NCBI RefSeq assembly: GCF_014337925.2
Contig: NZ_CP143423.1
Span: 3,874,501 to 3,938,500, forward strand
Length of the DNA: 64,000 bases
Origin: Roseobacter fucihabitans
GTDB taxonomy: Bacteria; Pseudomonadota; Alphaproteobacteria; Rhodobacterales; Rhodobacteraceae
Reading direction: 5' to 3'
How positions within the stretch are numbered: the first letter of the stretch is position 1; the number at the start of each line of letters is the position of its first letter. A model generated the notes under the pieces. That model had not been told where the DNA came from. It was given only the letters and a program-made list of their open reading frames with translations, and did no database searches. The position numbers and the translations under genes are program-made. Positions 2,899 to 63,190 of this stretch are shown piece by piece.

Positions 2899-3903
2899 AT
2901 GAGTTCTATATCGCTCGGTGATCTCGCGCAATCCTTCATGCTTCAACGACGCAGCGTTTCTCTGCGCGAGAACATGAGCCGTCTTACTGACGAACTTTCG
3001 AGCGGTCAGGTGGCTGATGTGCGCGAAGTTCTTTCAGGCAATCACAACTATCTAACAGGTCTGGAAAGATCCCTAGAAGTGCTGGATAGCTATTCCGTCG
3101 CAAATGCGGAAGTCACCTATTTCACTGGGGCCATGCAAACGGCATTAGACAGTGTTCAGACCTTTGGCAGCGACTTGGGGCTAGATTTGATTATGGCGGG
3201 AGGCGGACCAATCGGTGTCGTTTCCGGTAATCCTTCCGATAACGCGCGCATCCAGCTCCAGGGTATCATCAAGTCTCTTAACGGTGACATTGCGGGACGG
3301 AGTTTGTTTTCAGGGACCGCGACGGACCAGGCACCGCTCCCAAGCGCGGAAGACCTAATCGCGCAGGTAATGACCGTCGTTGCGGGCCAGACGACACCCG
3401 AGGATATTGTGGCGGCAGCGGAAGCCTGGTTTGCCGACCCCGCCGGATTTGACGCAATGTCCTATGCAGGCTCCACCACAGCGCTGGCGCCTTTTGTATT
3501 GTCCGAAACGGAGCGCGTCACTTTGGACATTCGCGCAAATGATGATGCGCTCAAAGAGCTCTTGTTGCACACAACTGTTGCCGCGCTTGGAAGTGATCCG
3601 GCACTTGGTCTCGATATACCGGACCAGTCGAAGCTATTCGGCATTACTGGAATCGGCTTGCAATCCAACCAAGACCAGCTCACGAGCCTGCGTGCAAAAA
3701 TTGGCTTCACTGAGGAGCGAATAGCACTCATATCCGCACGCAATCAAGCCGAAGGCACCAGCACTGAATTTGCGCGCAATACGCTGCTTGAAGCCGACCC
3801 TTTCGAAACAGCTACGGAATTGGAGAGTGTGCAGTTTCATTTGCAAAGCCTGTACGCAGTTACGGTTCGCAGCTCGCAATTATCCCTCGTGAATTTCCTA
3901 TGA
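2899..3903 (+). CDS. flgL: Flagellar hook-associated protein 3 (FlgL)
   Basis: This is the second hook-filament junction protein, a flagellin homologue. Evidence is its position directly after flgK (3-base gap), its length of 334 residues, an N-terminal flagellin-like coiled-coil helix (about residues 10-75, with FMLQRRSVSLRENMSRLTDE) and a C-terminal helix with ESVQFHLQSLYAVTVRSSQL. The stop overlaps the flgI start in an ATGA arrangement, so translation is probably coupled. The family call rests on context plus the terminal helices; the variable middle is not diagnostic. Confidence 0.9.
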   Translation: MSSISLGDLAQSFMLQRRSVSLRENMSRLTDELSSGQVADVREVLSGNHNYLTGLERSLEVLDSYSVANAEVTYFTGAMQTALDSVQTFGSDLGLDLIMAGGGPIGVVSGNPSDNARIQLQGIIKSLNGDIAGRSLFSGTATDQAPLPSAEDLIAQVMTVVAGQTTPEDIVAAAEAWFADPAGFDAMSYAGSTTALAPFVLSETERVTLDIRANDDALKELLLHTTVAALGSDPALGLDIPDQSKLFGITGIGLQSNQDQLTSLRAKIGFTEERIALISARNQAEGTSTEFARNTLLEADPFETATELESVQFHLQSLYAVTVRSSQLSLVNFL

Positions 3904-5003
3904 AACATTTTGTGACATTTGCTCTTCTCTTGATCCTAAACGTACATCAAGCGTTCGCCGGCCCCGTAAGAATCAAGGACCTGGTCGAATTTGATGGCGT
4001 GCGCGGTAACGACTTGGTTGGCTATGGCCTTGTCGTTGGCCTGAATGGGAGCGGTGACGGGTTACGGAATGCGCCATTCACAGAAGAGATAATGTCGAAT
4101 ATACTTGAACGCTTGGGCGTCAATGTTGCGGGGGAACAGTTCAGGCCAAAGAACGTGGCCGCCGTATTTGTTACTGCCGCTCTACCACCATTTGCACGCG
4201 GCGGCAGCCAGATTGACGTAACGGTTTCCGCAATCGGTGACGCCAGCAGTCTGTTGGGGGGAACCCTCATCATGACACCGCTGAATGCCGCTGACGGCCA
4301 GATCTATGCCGTCGCACAGGGAACAATCATTGCCGGCGGGGTTGTTGCGGAAGGCAATGGTGCCAACGTTACACAAGGTGTCCCGACAGCGGGAACCATT
4401 CCATCAGGTGCACGTGTTGAGCGTGAAATCGAGTTTGATTTATCGAATTTGAACAATTTAAGATTAGCGCTGCGAGATGCCGATTTCACCACCGCTGGAC
4501 GTATTGAGCAAGCCATCAATGCAGACTTTGGCCGACCGGTCGCATTTATGCTCGATTCGGGCACCGTTCAATTGAATATCCCTGAAACGAGAATGGCTTC
4601 TGTTGCTCACGCCTTGGGCCGCATTGAAAATATTTCTGTTTTACCCGAACGTAAAGCTAGGGTGGTCGTCGATCAACGTTCAGGGACGATTGTTATGGGT
4701 GAGGATGTTCGGATCTCACGGGTGGCCGTCTCGCAGGGAAATCTAACTCTGCGTATTGAGGAAGCTCCAATTGCCGTACAACCAAATCCATTTGCAGAAG
4801 GCGAAACGGTAATAGTACCCAGAACAAATGCGGAAATCGAAGAAGAACCAGGAATCGGACTAGCAGAAGTCCCCGACGGAACATCGCTGTCTGAAGTCAT
4901 TGCCGGCCTGAACGCGCTCGGCGTCGCACCAAGAGACATGATAGACATCTTAAAAAGCATCAAGGCAGCCGGTGCTTTGCACGCGGAATTCATCGTTCGA
5001 TAA
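3900..5003 (+). CDS. flgI: Flagellar P-ring protein precursor FlgI
   Basis: FlgI forms the periplasmic P-ring around the flagellar rod. The protein begins with a Sec signal peptide (MKHFVTFALLLILNVHQAFA) followed at once by the strongly conserved mature start RIKDLVEFDGVRGNDLVGYG and GLVVGLNGSGD. Other family blocks are VNIPETRMASVAHALGRIE-like residues and the C-terminal LNALGVAPRDMIDILKSIKA plus AGALHAEFIVR. At 367 residues it is complete. The start overlaps the flgL stop by four bases. It is the last flagellar gene here; downstream is non-coding sequence and then IS remnants. Confidence 0.96.
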   Translation: MKHFVTFALLLILNVHQAFAGPVRIKDLVEFDGVRGNDLVGYGLVVGLNGSGDGLRNAPFTEEIMSNILERLGVNVAGEQFRPKNVAAVFVTAALPPFARGGSQIDVTVSAIGDASSLLGGTLIMTPLNAADGQIYAVAQGTIIAGGVVAEGNGANVTQGVPTAGTIPSGARVEREIEFDLSNLNNLRLALRDADFTTAGRIEQAINADFGRPVAFMLDSGTVQLNIPETRMASVAHALGRIENISVLPERKARVVVDQRSGTIVMGEDVRISRVAVSQGNLTLRIEEAPIAVQPNPFAEGETVIVPRTNAEIEEEPGIGLAEVPDGTSLSEVIAGLNALGVAPRDMIDILKSIKAAGALHAEFIVR

Positions 5004-5441
5004 TCTGAAATTGCTTGTATAAGCACTTTCCAATAACGAAGCCGATTGGCCTCACCAATGATGTTTTTTGAGGCGGTCTACGCATGTTTGGCGATGGGTA
5101 CCGTAAGCCCGGTCCACTACCTGGCTATTAGGAAATAAAAGCAAGACCTCGGAGGCTTGGTCGCTTTCATTTGCGGTCTTAGATAAAAAGTGCTTTCATT
5201 AGAACCGCAATATAAGCTTATTGGAACGCGGCGGTTCAGCATCCATGCTTTGAATTTAGCCGCCGATTTTTGGGACAAGACCATTTCAGTGCAATGAGCC
5301 CGCCTGTTATGGTGTCCTTCCAAATGAGCCCCACAAAAGGATGGAAAGATTGTTTTTGGAGCATCTGATGCTCTGCAATGTGGTCAATCTGAAAGCAACA
5401 GTACTGATCAAAAAAATACGCGGGCGTGTCGCCAACAGACA
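5004..5441. other. Intergenic stretch between flgI and IS remnant
   Basis: No convincing gene is seen. A weak intrinsic-terminator-like hairpin (ATTGG at 5045-5049, CCAAT at 5055-5059, then a T run at 5064-5069) lies just after flgI. The rest is of lower GC content than the surrounding genes and may be the debris of an older insertion. The region ends at the left inverted repeat of the IS3-family element. Confidence 0.5.
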
Positions 5442-5912
5442 TGACCTGACCTTTCCCCCGAGGCTCCCTCATTCATAACGAGAGTTTGCGGTCGTACTCG
5501 TCGTCGTCGGTTTGGGCAAGCGCGTCGTGCGCGGAGCCCTCAAATTGCTCAAGCGCCCGGCGCGCTTCTGCCGGCGTTTGGTTCTCCAGCGATGAATGCG
5601 GTCTGACGTTATTATAATCGTATCGCCAGAGGGCCAGCTTTCGACGGGCATCATCCAAGGTGTCGAAGATCTCCTCATTCAGCAGTTCGTCTCGCAGGCT
5701 CCCATTGAAGCTTTCGATGAAGGCATTCTGCGTCGGCTTGCCCGGGTCGATGTAATGCCAATCCACGTCGTTATCACCGGCCCGTTTCAGGATCGCACGA
5801 CTGGTAAATTCCGTGCCGTTATCACTGACGATACAGGCGGGCTTTCCATAGACGCGCACAAGCGCATCAAGCTCGCGTGCCACCCTCGCACCAGTGATAC
5901 TGGTATCAGCCA

Positions 5913-5959
5913 TCCGTTGCCCGGCAGGCGATTTGGCAAAGCCAAACCTGCCGGGAGGA
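5913..5959 (+). repeat. Short palindromic element 1 (in IS-A orfB)
   Basis: The element carries the conserved left flank CCGTTGCCCGGCA, then a long hairpin with arms CCGGCAGG..TTTGGC and GCCAAA..CCTGCCGG around an AAA loop, and ends in GGGAGGAGG. It sits between the transposase segments ENLCL and [10 protein letters not shown] and shifts the frame between them. Confidence 0.75.
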
Positions 5960-6014
5960 GGCACAGGTTCTCGCGGCAGCAGTCGTTGTTCATGGCTAAC
6001 ATACGGAACTTGCG

Positions 6015-6055
6015 CCCCTCTCATGCATGTAAACATGCATTGCCGGGCAATGGAC
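6015..6055 (-). repeat. Short palindromic element 2 (in IS-A orfB)
   Basis: Minus-strand orientation: GTCCATTGCCCGGCA, then arms ATGCATG / CATGCAT with loop TTTA, ending GAGAGGGG. It separates SDTFGA from [11 protein letters not shown] of the transposase, so the insertion limits can be placed to within a few bases. Confidence 0.85.
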
Positions 6056-6210
6056 GCACCAAACGTGTCAGACACAAAGTCCAGCGATCAGCGTTCACCA
6101 GGACGTAACGCAACAGGCATCGGTATTCCTGATCCTCGCGCTCGTTTGCGGCCTCGGCGCCGCCTGACGCCCAGCTTTTCCTCGGTGTAGAGACGATACA
6201 GCTTCTTGTG

Positions 6211-6250
6211 CCCTCTCATGCATGTAAACATGCACTGCCGGGTGACAGTA
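6211..6250 (-). repeat. Short palindromic element 3 (in IS-A orfB)
   Basis: Minus-strand orientation: TGTCACCCGGCA flank, the same stem-loop as element 2 (ATGCATG / CATGCAT, loop TTTA) and the GAGAGGG end. It separates RKGMIM from HKKLYRLYTEE. Confidence 0.85.
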
Positions 6251-6290
6251 TCATAATCATGCCTTTGCGTTCCAACAGCACGCCGATCCG

Positions 6291-6331
6291 GCCCCTCTCA
6301 TCGATACTGCGTATCGACTGCCGGGCAGTGG
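6291..6331 (-). repeat. Short palindromic element 4 (in IS-A orfB)
   Basis: Minus-strand orientation: CACTGCCCGGCA flank, arms TCGATAC / GTATCGA with loop GCA, ending GAGAGGGGC. It lies between RRDKPP and RIGVLLE. About 25 transposase residues normally found there are missing, so this copy replaces sequence rather than simply adding to it. Confidence 0.82.
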
Positions 6332-6368
6332 GCGGTTTGTCGCGCCGGATGGTCTTGGGGCCGACACC

Positions 6369-6404
6369 CGTTGGCGGGCAACACATGCTTGCATGTGTGA
6401 GAGG
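6369..6404 (+). repeat. Short palindromic element 5 (in IS-A orfB)
   Basis: Plus-strand orientation: CGTTGGCGGGCA flank, arms ACACATGC / GCATGTGT with a 2-base TT loop, ending GAGAGG. Removing 36 bases restores the in-frame transposase junction RACRLV-GVGPKT, so the size of this insertion is well defined. No target duplication is evident. Confidence 0.85.
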
Positions 6405-6524
6405 GACAAGCCTGCACGCCCGACGTTGCGAGATATCATGATCTCCCATCGCCTTGCGTGCCGCAGCCCGTCGCACATGCGTTCGCCATCGTGCTCGAAC
6501 CAATGGCGCATCAATGGCTCACCG

Positions 6525-6829
6525 TCAGTTCTTTCCCAGCAAATCTTTCAACATGACGTTGTTGAGCATCGTGTCCGCCAGAAGACGCTTCAGCTTGGCG
6601 CTCTTGTCCTCCAGCGATTTGAGGCGGTGGGTGTCAGAAACGTTCACCCTCGGGACATCGCTGCGCGATACCCTGCCGTGCAACGCATGCCGCCGTATTT
6701 TGCTTTGAATTTGCAGAACGACGCAGGGCTCAGACCATGTCTGCGACACACCTCTGCTGTCGGCATCCCAGCTTCCTGTTCTTTGATCATCCCGATAATC
6801 CGGGCCTCGGTAAAACAACTCTGTCGCAT
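6525..6829 (-). pseudogene. IS3-family transposase OrfA (HTH), disrupted
   Basis: The minus strand encodes CFTEARIIGMIKEQEAGMPT followed by AEVCRRHGLSPASF and KFKAKYGGM, the usual IS3 OrfA helix-turn-helix. After a palindromic insertion (6648-6685) it continues with NVSDTHRLKSLEDKSAKLKR and LLADTMLNNVMLKDLLGK, the leucine-zipper part. The insertion throws the two halves into different frames, so OrfA is broken exactly at a hairpin element. It lies upstream of the orfB remnant in the normal IS3 order. Confidence 0.82.
6648..6685 (-). repeat. Short palindromic element 6 (in IS-A orfA)
   Basis: Minus-strand orientation: CGTTGCACGGCA flank, stem GGTATCGC / GCGATGTCC with loop GCA, ending GAGGG. 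It separates KAKYGGM from VNVSDTHRLK in orfA. Confidence 0.8.
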
Positions 6830-7011
6830 TTGTCTGCTCCTTCAAAGGCTGAACAAACTCTACATCAAACTGAGGGAAGTTTCGGGGGGCAGGGCAGAAA
6901 CCGTTGCGTGAGTTGGAAGATTAGAATTTTCGGTTGAAGAAGATCGTTGCGGACTTGGTATTGGGTAAGGAAATTGCTCCAGGATGTTCTGAAGCGAAAA
7001 CTCTAAGGTCC

Positions 7012-7049
7012 CGTTGCCCGGCAGGGCATTGCGCAGCAATGTCCCGGGA
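7012..7049 (+). repeat. Short palindromic element 7 (in IS-B)
   Basis: Plus-strand orientation: CGTTGCCCGGCA flank, stem GGCATTGC / GCAATGTCC with loop GCA, ending CGGGAG. It is closely related to element 6 although it lies in a different IS. It interrupts the transposase between LKRKL and the HDRKRTLVEEI segment. Confidence 0.8.
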
Positions 7050-7164
7050 GCATGATCGCAAACGCACGCTAGTCGAGGAGATCAGAACGGATTGGCGGGT
7101 GTCGATCCGAAGAGCTTGTGCGCTTACCAGGTTCGATCCCCAAACATATCGCTACAAGGTCCAT

Positions 7165-7200
7165 CTCTCACTGATCCAAGCATCGCCTGCCAGGCAACGG
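7165..7200 (-). repeat. Short palindromic element 8, degenerate (in IS-B)
   Basis: Minus-strand orientation: CCGTTGCCTGGCA flank and GAGAG end are recognisable, but the stem between them pairs poorly. It lies in IS-B just after QTYRYK. This is the weakest member of the set. Confidence 0.5.
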
Positions 7201-7270
7201 TTCGGCGCGATCAGGCTGCAATATAACAGCGGATCAAGGAAACTTGTCGAACCCGAGTGCGGTTTGAGCA

Positions 7271-7311
7271 TCCATTGCCCGGCAGTCGATACAAAGTATC
7301 GATCAGAGGGG
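7271..7311 (+). repeat. Short palindromic element 9 (in IS-B)
   Basis: Plus-strand orientation: TCCATTGCCCGGCA flank, arms GTCGATAC / GTATCGAT with loop AAA, ending AGAGGGG. It separates RTRVRFEH from VHVLRRWEGQD. The stem is nearly the same as that of element 4 in IS-A. Confidence 0.83.
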
Positions 7312-7425
7312 TCACGTGCATGTCCTGCGGCGGTGGGAGGGTCAAGATACCAACGCGCAGAAAAAGTGACGCTGCGTTCGACGTGACAGCAGATGTGTGA
7401 AAATGTGATCTCCAGGCAACCATAA

Positions 7426-9471
<2,046 letters not shown>

Positions 9472-61222: not shown

Positions 61223-63190
61223 GTGATCAGACGTCTGCTGACAACGATGATTCTTATTTTTGTAACCGCTATGCCGAGTCTGGCGGAGCGGCCAAGGCCC
61301 CTGGCCTGGGCAATGGATGCGGTGCGCAGCGGCGACTGGCAGACCGCGGCAAAAGCTGCTGCACGTGACGGCGATGTTGCGGCCGATGTGGTTGAATGGT
61401 CGCGTTTGCGCGCGGGGCGGGGCACCTATGACGATGTCATGACGTTTCTGAATCGGCGCCCGGATTGGCCGGGCGAACCATATTTGCGCAAACAATCCGA
61501 AAAGGTTGTGATTGTGCGGCCCGATTCGGATGTCATCGCGTTTTTTGATGCACAGGCTGCGCAGACAGCGGAAGGCGTTTTGCGCCATGCCCAAGCACTG
61601 GAGCGGACCGGGAAGCCGGATCAGGCCCGCAAAAATATCATAAATGCTTGGCGTTCAATGCCTATGGGTGCCACCGCGCAGGCGTTATTCGTGGCATCGC
61701 ATGATGCGCTCTTGAAAGAGCATGATACCGCCCGCCTCGATGCGATGCTCTGGGCCGGCGCGATTGAGAACGCGCGCCGCATGTTTGATCGGGTGTCTGC
61801 TGCGGATCGAGCCGTTGCCGATGCGCGCATTGCCCTGCATAAATTGGATAAGGGCGTGGATACGCTCATCTCCAGAATACCACAAAGCCACGCGAAAAAC
61901 CCCGGCTTGCAATATGAGCGGTTTGTCTGGCGCGCGCGCAAGGGGCGATGGGATGATGCAAAAGCGCTCCTGCTGGCCACGTCAACCAGTGCCGACGCCC
62001 TCGGTGATCCGCAAGCCTGGAGCAATCGTCGCAGGTCTATGGCTCGGGATGAAATGCGTGACGGCAACGCCGAGCGCGCCTATGAAATCGCGGCGCGCCA
62101 TTTTCTGACCAGTGGCTCGAACTATGCCGATCTGGAATGGCTGGCCGGTTACATTGCGCTGCGCAAACTGAATGAACCAGAGACAGCGCTGCAGCATTTC
62201 AAGAATCATGACGCAGCGGTGCGCTCTCCAATATCAAAAGGGCGAGCAGGGTACTGGCAAGGCCGTGCATTGGAGGCCCTGGGAGATGTGGCTGCTGCGG
62301 ATCAGGCATATACGCGCGGAGCACAATATCAGACCTCCTTCTATGGGTTGCTGGCCGCAGAGCGGGCAGATTTGCCCTTTGATGTCCACCTTCCAGATGA
62401 CGCCGCAGGGTTAAATTGGCGTGATTCATCCTTGGCTCAAGAGCCCCTGTTTGTAGCGGGTTTGTTACTTCAGGCCTCTGGTGAGTTGAATTTGGCCGAG
62501 AGGTTCTGGACACATTTGGCCGAAAGCCTGGATCAACAACAGGCAACTCTTTTGGCAGAGGCTGCACTGGATACGGGTGAGCCGCATTTGGCAGTCATGA
62601 TCGGCAAACGTGCCGCCCAGCGCAGCGTAGTTGTTCCCCGTGGGTATTATGCGCTTCATCCCATCTCAGAACAACCGCTCCCGATGGCTCCTGAGATGGT
62701 ACTTGCGATTGCACGACGCGAAAGTGAGTTCGACCCTGGCGTGCAAAGTGGCGTCGGTGCGCGCGGTTTGATGCAGATTATGCCTGCAACGGGCCGCGAG
62801 GTTGCCGCTTCCATGGGGCGCGCTTCTCAGCATAGTACAGAACGGCTCATATCGGATCCTACCTATAATGCAGAATTAGGTGCCGCCTATCTGGAAGAAC
62901 TGGCACATCGTTTCCGGGGCAATGTCGTGATGATGTCCGCGGGTTATAATGCCGGTCCAAGCCGCCCGGACCGGTGGATGATTACCTTTGGAGACCCCAG
63001 AAAAGGGGAGATCGACATGATCGACTGGATCGAACACATACCGTTCCGCGAGACGCGCAACTATGTGATGCGGGTGACGGAGAGCTTGCCAATATATCGC
63101 GCCAGGCTTGGTAAAGACCCATTGCCGCAACCGTTCAGCGAGGAGTTGACCGGATCATCGCTGTTGTCTTTCGCGCCAAAGGGTGAATAG
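61223..63190 (+). CDS. Lytic murein transglycosylase (Slt70-like)
   Basis: The 655-residue periplasmic enzyme cleaves peptidoglycan glycan strands. It has a signal peptide (LLTTMILIFVTAMPSLA), a long alpha-superhelical region of paired helices (about residues 30-470) and a C-terminal SLT domain with RRESEFDPGVQSGVGARGLM (catalytic Glu near 500), QIMPATGREVAASMG and MMSAGYNAGPSRPDRWM. The start is uncertain: GTG at 61223 or ATG at 61247 both leave a signal peptide. The 3' end overlaps the convergent transporter gene by 36 bases. Confidence 0.9.
   Translation: MIRRLLTTMILIFVTAMPSLAERPRPLAWAMDAVRSGDWQTAAKAAARDGDVAADVVEWSRLRAGRGTYDDVMTFLNRRPDWPGEPYLRKQSEKVVIVRPDSDVIAFFDAQAAQTAEGVLRHAQALERTGKPDQARKNIINAWRSMPMGATAQALFVASHDALLKEHDTARLDAMLWAGAIENARRMFDRVSAADRAVADARIALHKLDKGVDTLISRIPQSHAKNPGLQYERFVWRARKGRWDDAKALLLATSTSADALGDPQAWSNRRRSMARDEMRDGNAERAYEIAARHFLTSGSNYADLEWLAGYIALRKLNEPETALQHFKNHDAAVRSPISKGRAGYWQGRALEALGDVAAADQAYTRGAQYQTSFYGLLAAERADLPFDVHLPDDAAGLNWRDSSLAQEPLFVAGLLLQASGELNLAERFWTHLAESLDQQQATLLAEAALDTGEPHLAVMIGKRAAQRSVVVPRGYYALHPISEQPLPMAPEMVLAIARRESEFDPGVQSGVGARGLMQIMPATGREVAASMGRASQHSTERLISDPTYNAELGAAYLEELAHRFRGNVVMMSAGYNAGPSRPDRWMITFGDPRKGEIDMIDWIEHIPFRETRNYVMRVTESLPIYRARLGKDPLPQPFSEELTGSSLLSFAPKGE

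Follow-up and report, generated by a model that had tools for sequence, protein, structure and literature searches.

Short palindromic elements inserted almost only in insertion sequence genes of Roseobacter fucihabitans

Introduction

Insertion of small repeats into insertion sequences (ISs) has a precedent in RUP of pneumococcus, a 107-bp intergenic element with 9-bp terminal inverted repeats and a target duplication, which was reported from over six families of ISs and put forward as a check on transposases (PMC2229807); a later analysis of pneumococcal genomes lent no support to a RUP-IS association (PMC3049150). In Alphaproteobacteria, CGTC-tagged REPs, including RPE-4 and RPE-6 of Rickettsia, are common hairpins of 20-40 bp whose links to transposase genes are few and fortuitous (PMC3733652). 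GTAG REPs and REPINs combine a short imperfect hairpin with an adjacent tag, lie mostly in extragenic DNA and are presumed to be mobilised by HUH enzymes (PMC3116915; PMC8266576).

The elements described here resemble RUP in being small, non-autonomous palindromes that insert in many IS families, and differ from it in their length of 36-44 nt and in having neither its terminal repeats, its target duplication nor its intergenic location. By host range and absence of a transposase, CGTC REPs are the nearest known system: size, a tetranucleotide at one end and the lack of a dedicated transposase are common to both, whereas the structure differs (PMC3733652). In place of a CGTC-like tag, a stem of 8-9 bp starting with AT, and a CCA tail, the present elements have CRWC in the target, a CCC/GGG clamp, a GGCA/GAGA loop framing the stem, and no CCA tail. 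The short hairpin recalls GTAG REPs and REPINs; the left flank is CRWC instead of GTAG, the ends are constant CAYTG and GAGAGGG, and there is no clear intergenic site. Neither a linked RAYT nor a Y1 gene flanked by the same palindromes was found: at the 10 Y1 matches of the genome, the model matches listed occur only at three identical copies, with the element inside the gene.

Miniature elements of the IS200/IS605 type share with this family a fixed tetranucleotide, the absence of target duplication and a strand-specific hairpin; IS200/IS605 and its miniature derivatives (cf. PMC6006769) carry a hairpin at each end and have an enzyme that is known, whereas a single hairpin of about 40 nt is present here. 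The byps of yeast mitochondria (cf. PMC5009743) and the phage T4 gene 60 gap are coding-sequence inserts of comparable size that form hairpins, whereas the present elements occur in both orientations, mainly in IS genes, with no sign of skipping. Rickettsia palindromic elements, to which, as to REPINs, the earlier note on this DNA had likened the family in style though not in sequence, lie in frame in host genes; here inserts of 36, 37, 38, 40, 41 and 44 nt lie in IS genes, and the likeness fails on frame, the net inserts of 37, 38, 40, 41 and 44 nt not being multiples of three. Searches of open-licence papers yielded no description of this family.

Hairpin elements in two IS remnants

The window is the whole stretch of 64,000 nt that was analysed, from contig NZ_CP143423.1. 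Nine hairpin elements can be read in the sequence between 5914 and 7311: IS-A, which is presumably IS407-like, contains six of them and a second IS remnant three. The features are as follows.

5455..6897, minus strand: IS-A, an IS3-type IS with broken orfA/orfB; rve_3/rve Pfam match on the C-terminal part
5914..5960, plus strand: E6, antisense to the transposase, net insert 44 nt; family model, exact insert relative to L088, L090 and L092
6015..6053, minus strand: E5, sense, net insert 37 nt; family model, exact insert
6211..6250, minus strand: E4, left end degenerate, net insert 38 nt; partial model match at 6211-6242, homologue comparison
6292..6331, minus strand: E3, replacing about 66 bp of orfB; family model, alignment
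6369..6404, plus strand: E2, antisense, net insert 36 nt; exact insert relative to L088, model E 3.6
6483..6519, minus strand: insert of a second palindromic class, 37 nt; three homologues, class present at other loci
6647..6687, minus strand: E1 in orfA, degenerate, net insert 41 nt; model E 0.036, exact insert
6934..7386, plus strand: second IS remnant, IS3-like by reading of the frames only, no Pfam family
7011..7051, plus strand: element in the second IS remnant; model match at 7011-7049
7161..7200, minus strand: degenerate element in the second IS remnant; inverted match to 5914-5932, outside the model rows
7272..7311, plus strand: element in the second IS remnant; family model, 90% complementary to 6292-6331

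A covariance model of the family, run on the 64-kb window alone, matched seven of the nine at E <= 0.036 (5914-5960, 6015-6053, 6211-6242, 6292-6331, 6647-6686, 7011-7049 and 7272-7311). It placed 6368-6403 at E 3.6, inseparable from noise, and missed 7161-7200, an element recognised by 19 bases that match 5914-5932 in inverted orientation. In the rest of the window the top row, 61298-61316 (E 0.067), covers only 19 nt, and the other four rows all have E >= 0.9. Rfam matched nothing up to E = 1 across 5000-8500. The earlier note had counted nine elements, six and three across two ISs, in both orientations and absent from the rest of the window; all nine are legible in the sequence, both orientations occur, and the absence holds for copies that the family model can recognise.

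Element structure

The element is laid out as CAYTGCCCGGCA, a variable covarying stem-loop, and GAGAGGG, with a consensus fold of CCC, the internal loop GGCA/GAGA, the variable stem-loop and GGG. The stem is kept by compensatory change. Among 14 observed elements of 40 nt, standard pairs fill 99.4% of 154 pair cells, compared with 35-48% in slid controls; changes on both sides are seen at seven of 11 stem pairs, and the covariation score was equalled by none of 500 shuffles, the three clamp pairs being invariant and hence uninformative for covariation. In 171 stems from 191 distinct elements, G.T pairs outnumber A.C by 74 to 15 cells, or 36 to 15 with the outermost pair excluded, counts that are not independent because the elements are related. 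This excess suggests that folding takes place in the strand running from CAYTG to GAGAGGG. The RNA form folds well, and folds as single-stranded DNA are weaker and less uniform. Local hopping was rejected, since stems are no more similar within one IS than between ISs: in 3331 of 5000 shuffles of a set that included eight hand-transcribed elements, within-IS stems were at least as similar as observed.

Insertion sites

Hairpin-free homologues of IS-A exist in other genera (L088, L090 and L092, of which L088 has a 324-aa open frame). Alignment over the full IS gives net inserts of 41, 36, 38, 37 and 44 nt and confirms those at 6211-6250, 6369-6404 and 6647-6687; comparison of IS-D with five hairpin-free homologues gives inserts of 37 and 40 nt. 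Most resolved sites thus hold a single seamless insert of 36-44 nt, and these alignments reveal no target duplication at the resolved IS-A and IS-D sites. With boundaries set as CAYTG...GAGAGGG between CRWC and a following base, mostly G, and with a one-base rotation ambiguity of placement at some sites, the left flank across 51 sites reads C in 39, A or G in 43, T or A in 45 and C in 40. The elements insert seamlessly, in either orientation and without target duplication, after a target near CRWC.

The claim that removing the element at 6369-6404 restores the transposase junction exactly holds in the alignment with L088 (36 nt). More broadly, the reading of these palindromes as a miniature family inserted into ISs, several per IS, and not as parts of them, is borne out by the hairpin-free homologues; exact inserts are found at most resolved sites, with the reservation that the element at 6292-6331 replaces about 66 bp of IS-A. 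Intact IS copies carrying the same hairpins at the same sites would have spoken for parts of the IS: the four IS-A copies do share their hairpins, none is intact, and the homologues in other genera are free of them. The search and comparison that had been proposed yielded copy number and insertion points, with duplication absent at resolved sites. No empty site was found among near-identical IS copies.

Copies in the genome

The exact pattern occurs in the genome in 27 forward and 39 reverse rows, some places being counted twice via two end options, while the reversed control gives 0 and 0, which excludes a chance origin of the family. By the covariance model there are at least 149 copies in the 4.85-Mb genome (149 of 150 scored candidates match; in the model seed, A1, one row is untraced in the sequence and the last G is assumed in three rows). 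The 147 matches mapped to loci, two without a locus being left out, represent 51 sites when grouped by flank.

At 42 of the 51 sites the element is tied to a transposase, IS helper or recombinase gene by Pfam or by homology to IS-A or IS-D; among these, several have the family match on an adjacent fragment of the same IS, sites 7, 19 and 45 fall under the Pfam cut-off, site 34 is assigned through a neighbouring gene, and site 30 lies in a tyrosine recombinase fragment. Eight further sites (13, 18, 29, 38, 42, 44, 46 and 47) are ISs by reading only, a Pfam scan of the flanking frame being empty for 13 and 29, and site 50 has no context call. Thus 50 of 51 sites lie in IS-like or recombinase genes, a raw count not scaled to the IS share of the genome, and no clear intergenic copy is present among the 51, one of which is without a call. 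The types hit are IS3, IS5, IS21, IS66, IS1182, IS200-like and IS1595, with IS630-like added by reading. The elements, then, sit almost only in IS genes of many families, and break them.

The suggestion in the earlier note that dead ISs tolerate the elements is only partly right, and as a cause it is not supported: IS-D has two elements in otherwise unbroken frames, the IS-E copy L121 has one in an otherwise open frame, and no clear intergenic copy was found at the 51 sites, while a second palindrome class does occur between host genes in the same bacterial family.

Insertion and IS copying

In each of five IS groups of the genome, the copies share their element sites over whatever length each one covers. 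There are four copies of IS-A (99.4-100% identical), five near-full copies of IS-B (99.5-100%) and shorter ones, two 1771-bp blocks of IS-C and two shorter, five near-full copies of IS-D with two others of 1429 and 785 bp, and two near-full and four shorter copies of IS-E (98.5-99.8%). Since the sites are shared across the copies of each group, the elements were inserted before the ISs were copied. Diverged copies vary in site content: in IS-B two sites are confined to L012, two are shared by L012 with L124, one is shared by L124 with L125 and one is common to all, and in IS-E L121 is without one of two sites.

Several groups multiplied after they had died. The near-full IS-B copies are without the C-terminal region up to an element, where homologues have the third catalytic acidic residue, and IS-B was thus copied after death. 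The same applies to IS-E, in which frame breaks are common to L117 and L120 and six copies are split alike; in IS-C, by reading, most of IstA is gone with an element at the joint, and this group too was apparently copied when dead. An intact IS3 with a 328-aa frame is present in 19 matches of identical score, one of them in L133 at about 3259-4491; none of the listed model matches places an element in it, and the L133 copy was checked. Its ends resemble those of IS-B (TGGTCTTGTCGCGGTT vs TGGACCTGTCGCGGTT), and it is a possible helper. Intact ISs are also struck: apart from its two elements the IS-D frame has no breaks, and with these taken out it runs collinear to a 472-aa natural transposase.

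Deletions or joints between ISs end at an element in IS-A (E3), L012, L124, IS-C, L016 and L123, and recombination between two elements explains both simply. The comparison of L012 with L124, IS-B copies that share hairpins, gives a dN/dS of 0.055, with dS running from 1.28 to 0.16 along the IS; function with the hairpins in place was considered on this ground and rejected, the uneven dS denoting mosaic copies.

Occurrence in other genomes and plasmids

The exact pattern is found in 10 of 18 congeners, in one of four other genera of the family and in none of 16 genomes of other families; at E <= 1e-5 under stricter filters, the model matches 50 of 149 sampled family genomes, the genome itself included. 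Among the matches listed, named records with a good stem are mostly from Rhodobacterales, with Cohaesibacter, Rhizobium and a few others, and 28 of 119 places satisfy a stem test that allows no gaps, a few by chance; the 119 mix elements with chance matches, and some of the others are bulged stems.

By reading, each of the 12 plasmid loci (nine from 77 records and three from 10) falls in an IS-like frame, and Pfam supports this for three of them. Of 30 family loci returned, one was from the genome itself, and 27 of the 29 assessed lie in IS remnants, mostly by reading; in L325 the element stands directly 3' of an IS110 gene, again by reading. No clear intergenic site was seen among these 29 family and 12 plasmid loci. 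Three insertions fall outside ISs: in an M20 amidohydrolase gene (L299, Pfam slightly under cut-off), in a RelE-type toxin gene interrupted at about 1501 of L318, next to an apparent antitoxin gene in a one-contig genome, and at a plasmid replication initiator gene of a congener (L060).

A second palindromic class, GAGCCATTGnnnCGCCATTGGTYCGAGnnCAATGGCGA, provides the 37-nt insert of IS-A at 6483-6519 (minus strand). Matches to its exact pattern are present in 36 of the 149 family genomes, and 32 plasmid records contain a relative. By reading of 20 loci, ISs account for 12, six lie next to or between host genes and two have no clear call (loci of this class are L130, L288, L303, L308, L323, L326, L328 and L341-L360). 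The six show that small palindromes can persist outside ISs in this bacterial family.

Mechanism

Transposition of IS200/IS605 as single-stranded DNA by an HUH enzyme is marked by a fixed tetranucleotide, one orientation relative to it, the absence of duplication and a strand-specific hairpin. By this analogy we favour, tentatively and with somewhat less than even confidence, a non-autonomous palindrome that is inserted as single-stranded DNA by a putative HUH-like enzyme and retained chiefly where it disrupts ISs. An HUH-type enzyme supplied in trans would recognise one hairpin strand in single-stranded form, from which the fixed left tetranucleotide, the hairpin and the lack of duplication would follow. 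Persistence mainly in IS genes would arise if breaking an IS were neutral or useful to the host and other insertions were lost. Selection is the favoured source of the IS bias: in large populations an IS-breaking insertion may be retained and then copied. Related transposases might spread the broken IS copies in trans, and IS copying would multiply the element carried within.

No mobilising enzyme was identified. Y1_Tnp, with 10 matches in the genome, is a weak lead. Its co-occurrence with the elements was surveyed in sets of 23 and 34 genomes; in the larger set it is present in five of 14 element-rich and one of 15 element-free genomes of other genera, and missing from nine of the 14, including the richest (G101, G047 and G109). 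Among the 18 congeners, Y1 is found in G003, G012 and G014 (13, 8 and 3 exact matches) and is absent from G016 and G017 (11 and 2) and from five with one match each. The survey of 34 genomes lowered confidence in the single-strand mechanism, against which it also counts that some ISs hold six to nine elements, more than inactivation needs, that no empty site turned up in a near-identical IS copy, and that stems resemble each other no more within an IS than between ISs.

The elements might instead be directed to transposase genes as such, as an IS-targeting element or a host system in which insertion serves as silencing. This is unlikely: no target common to the ISs is seen beyond CRWC, candidate machinery is lacking, and the amidohydrolase, RelE and replication initiator genes are exceptions, whereas the placing of 50 of the 51 own sites in genes of IS-like or recombinase type (Pfam or homology for 42, reading for eight), all 12 plasmid loci, 27 of 29 loci of other genomes and the occurrence of the second class between host genes argue for it. 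Selection alone does not obviously account for the empty intergenic DNA, and direct targeting therefore keeps some probability. Movement by a DDE-type IS transposase, as proposed for RUP, would suit a small palindrome found in many IS families, as RUP is reported to be (PMC2229807), and is quite improbable given fixed, asymmetric ends with neither terminal inverted repeats nor target duplication.

Two readings concern what happens within the IS. Scars of break repair, inserted with variable deletion, could be suspected from the elements at which deletions or joints between ISs stop (IS-A E3, IS-B, L124, IS-C, L016 and L123); exact sites without loss prevail, recombination between elements explains the single elements at deletion joints, and this origin is very unlikely. 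A still slimmer chance attaches to ribosome skipping or RNA removal that keeps the ISs functional, as with byps or the T4 gene 60 gap. It is consistent with the well-folding RNA, with six IS-D copies that hold both elements and a truncated seventh that holds the one it reaches in otherwise unbroken frames, with the lack of any element-free IS-D copy in the genome, and with the low dN/dS (0.055) between diverged IS-B copies sharing sites. Against it, about 19 elements are sense and about 32 antisense among the 51 assigned by reading (39 own sites out of 51, together with 12 on plasmids), the reading shows no codon phase shared by them, and IS-B, IS-C and IS-E multiplied despite deletions or frameshifts that skipping could not cure, while the unequal IS-B dS (1.28, 0.16) points to mosaic copies. 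That the hairpins are an original part of the ISs is barely credible: the same sites recur across the copies of each IS in the genome as far as these reach, but hairpin-free homologues with open frames in other genera refute it by alignment, and sites differ among diverged copies.

Significance

Insertions of these elements may be a natural brake on jumping genes. Control of ISs by tiny repeats was raised for RUP, and the IS association found no later support (PMC2229807; PMC3049150). Here the association is near complete, extends over many IS families and is seen in about one in three sampled genera. With insertion points known exactly, and with a target motif and a stem that is conserved, the question of IS control becomes testable. 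The further idea of a palindrome of about 40 nt specialised on ISs across a whole bacterial family, placed seamlessly and in both orientations by putative machinery into transposase genes of unrelated IS families and acting as a hereditary, spreading brake on jumping genes, seems to us rather unlikely. As a very small element that inserts seamlessly and strand-specifically, the family offers a clear case for studying how tiny elements move.

Additional observations

At site 22, L117 and L121 hold an identical 39-nt element in IS copies whose surrounding sequence is about 15% diverged, which suggests either that the element inserted independently or that conversion covered a very short tract. 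Plasmids contain near matches of IS-A, IS-B and IS-D; with about 75-88% identity over their long matches these are too distant to date the insertions. Pieces of different ISs are joined at an element in L016 (1113-1151), L123 (about 1930-1969) and L009 (1285-1323), as though the elements served for recombination between ISs. A C/G run at one end of IS-A varies in length between otherwise near-identical copies (L025, L022, L013 and the window, 6885-6897) and reaches about 17 bases in L025.
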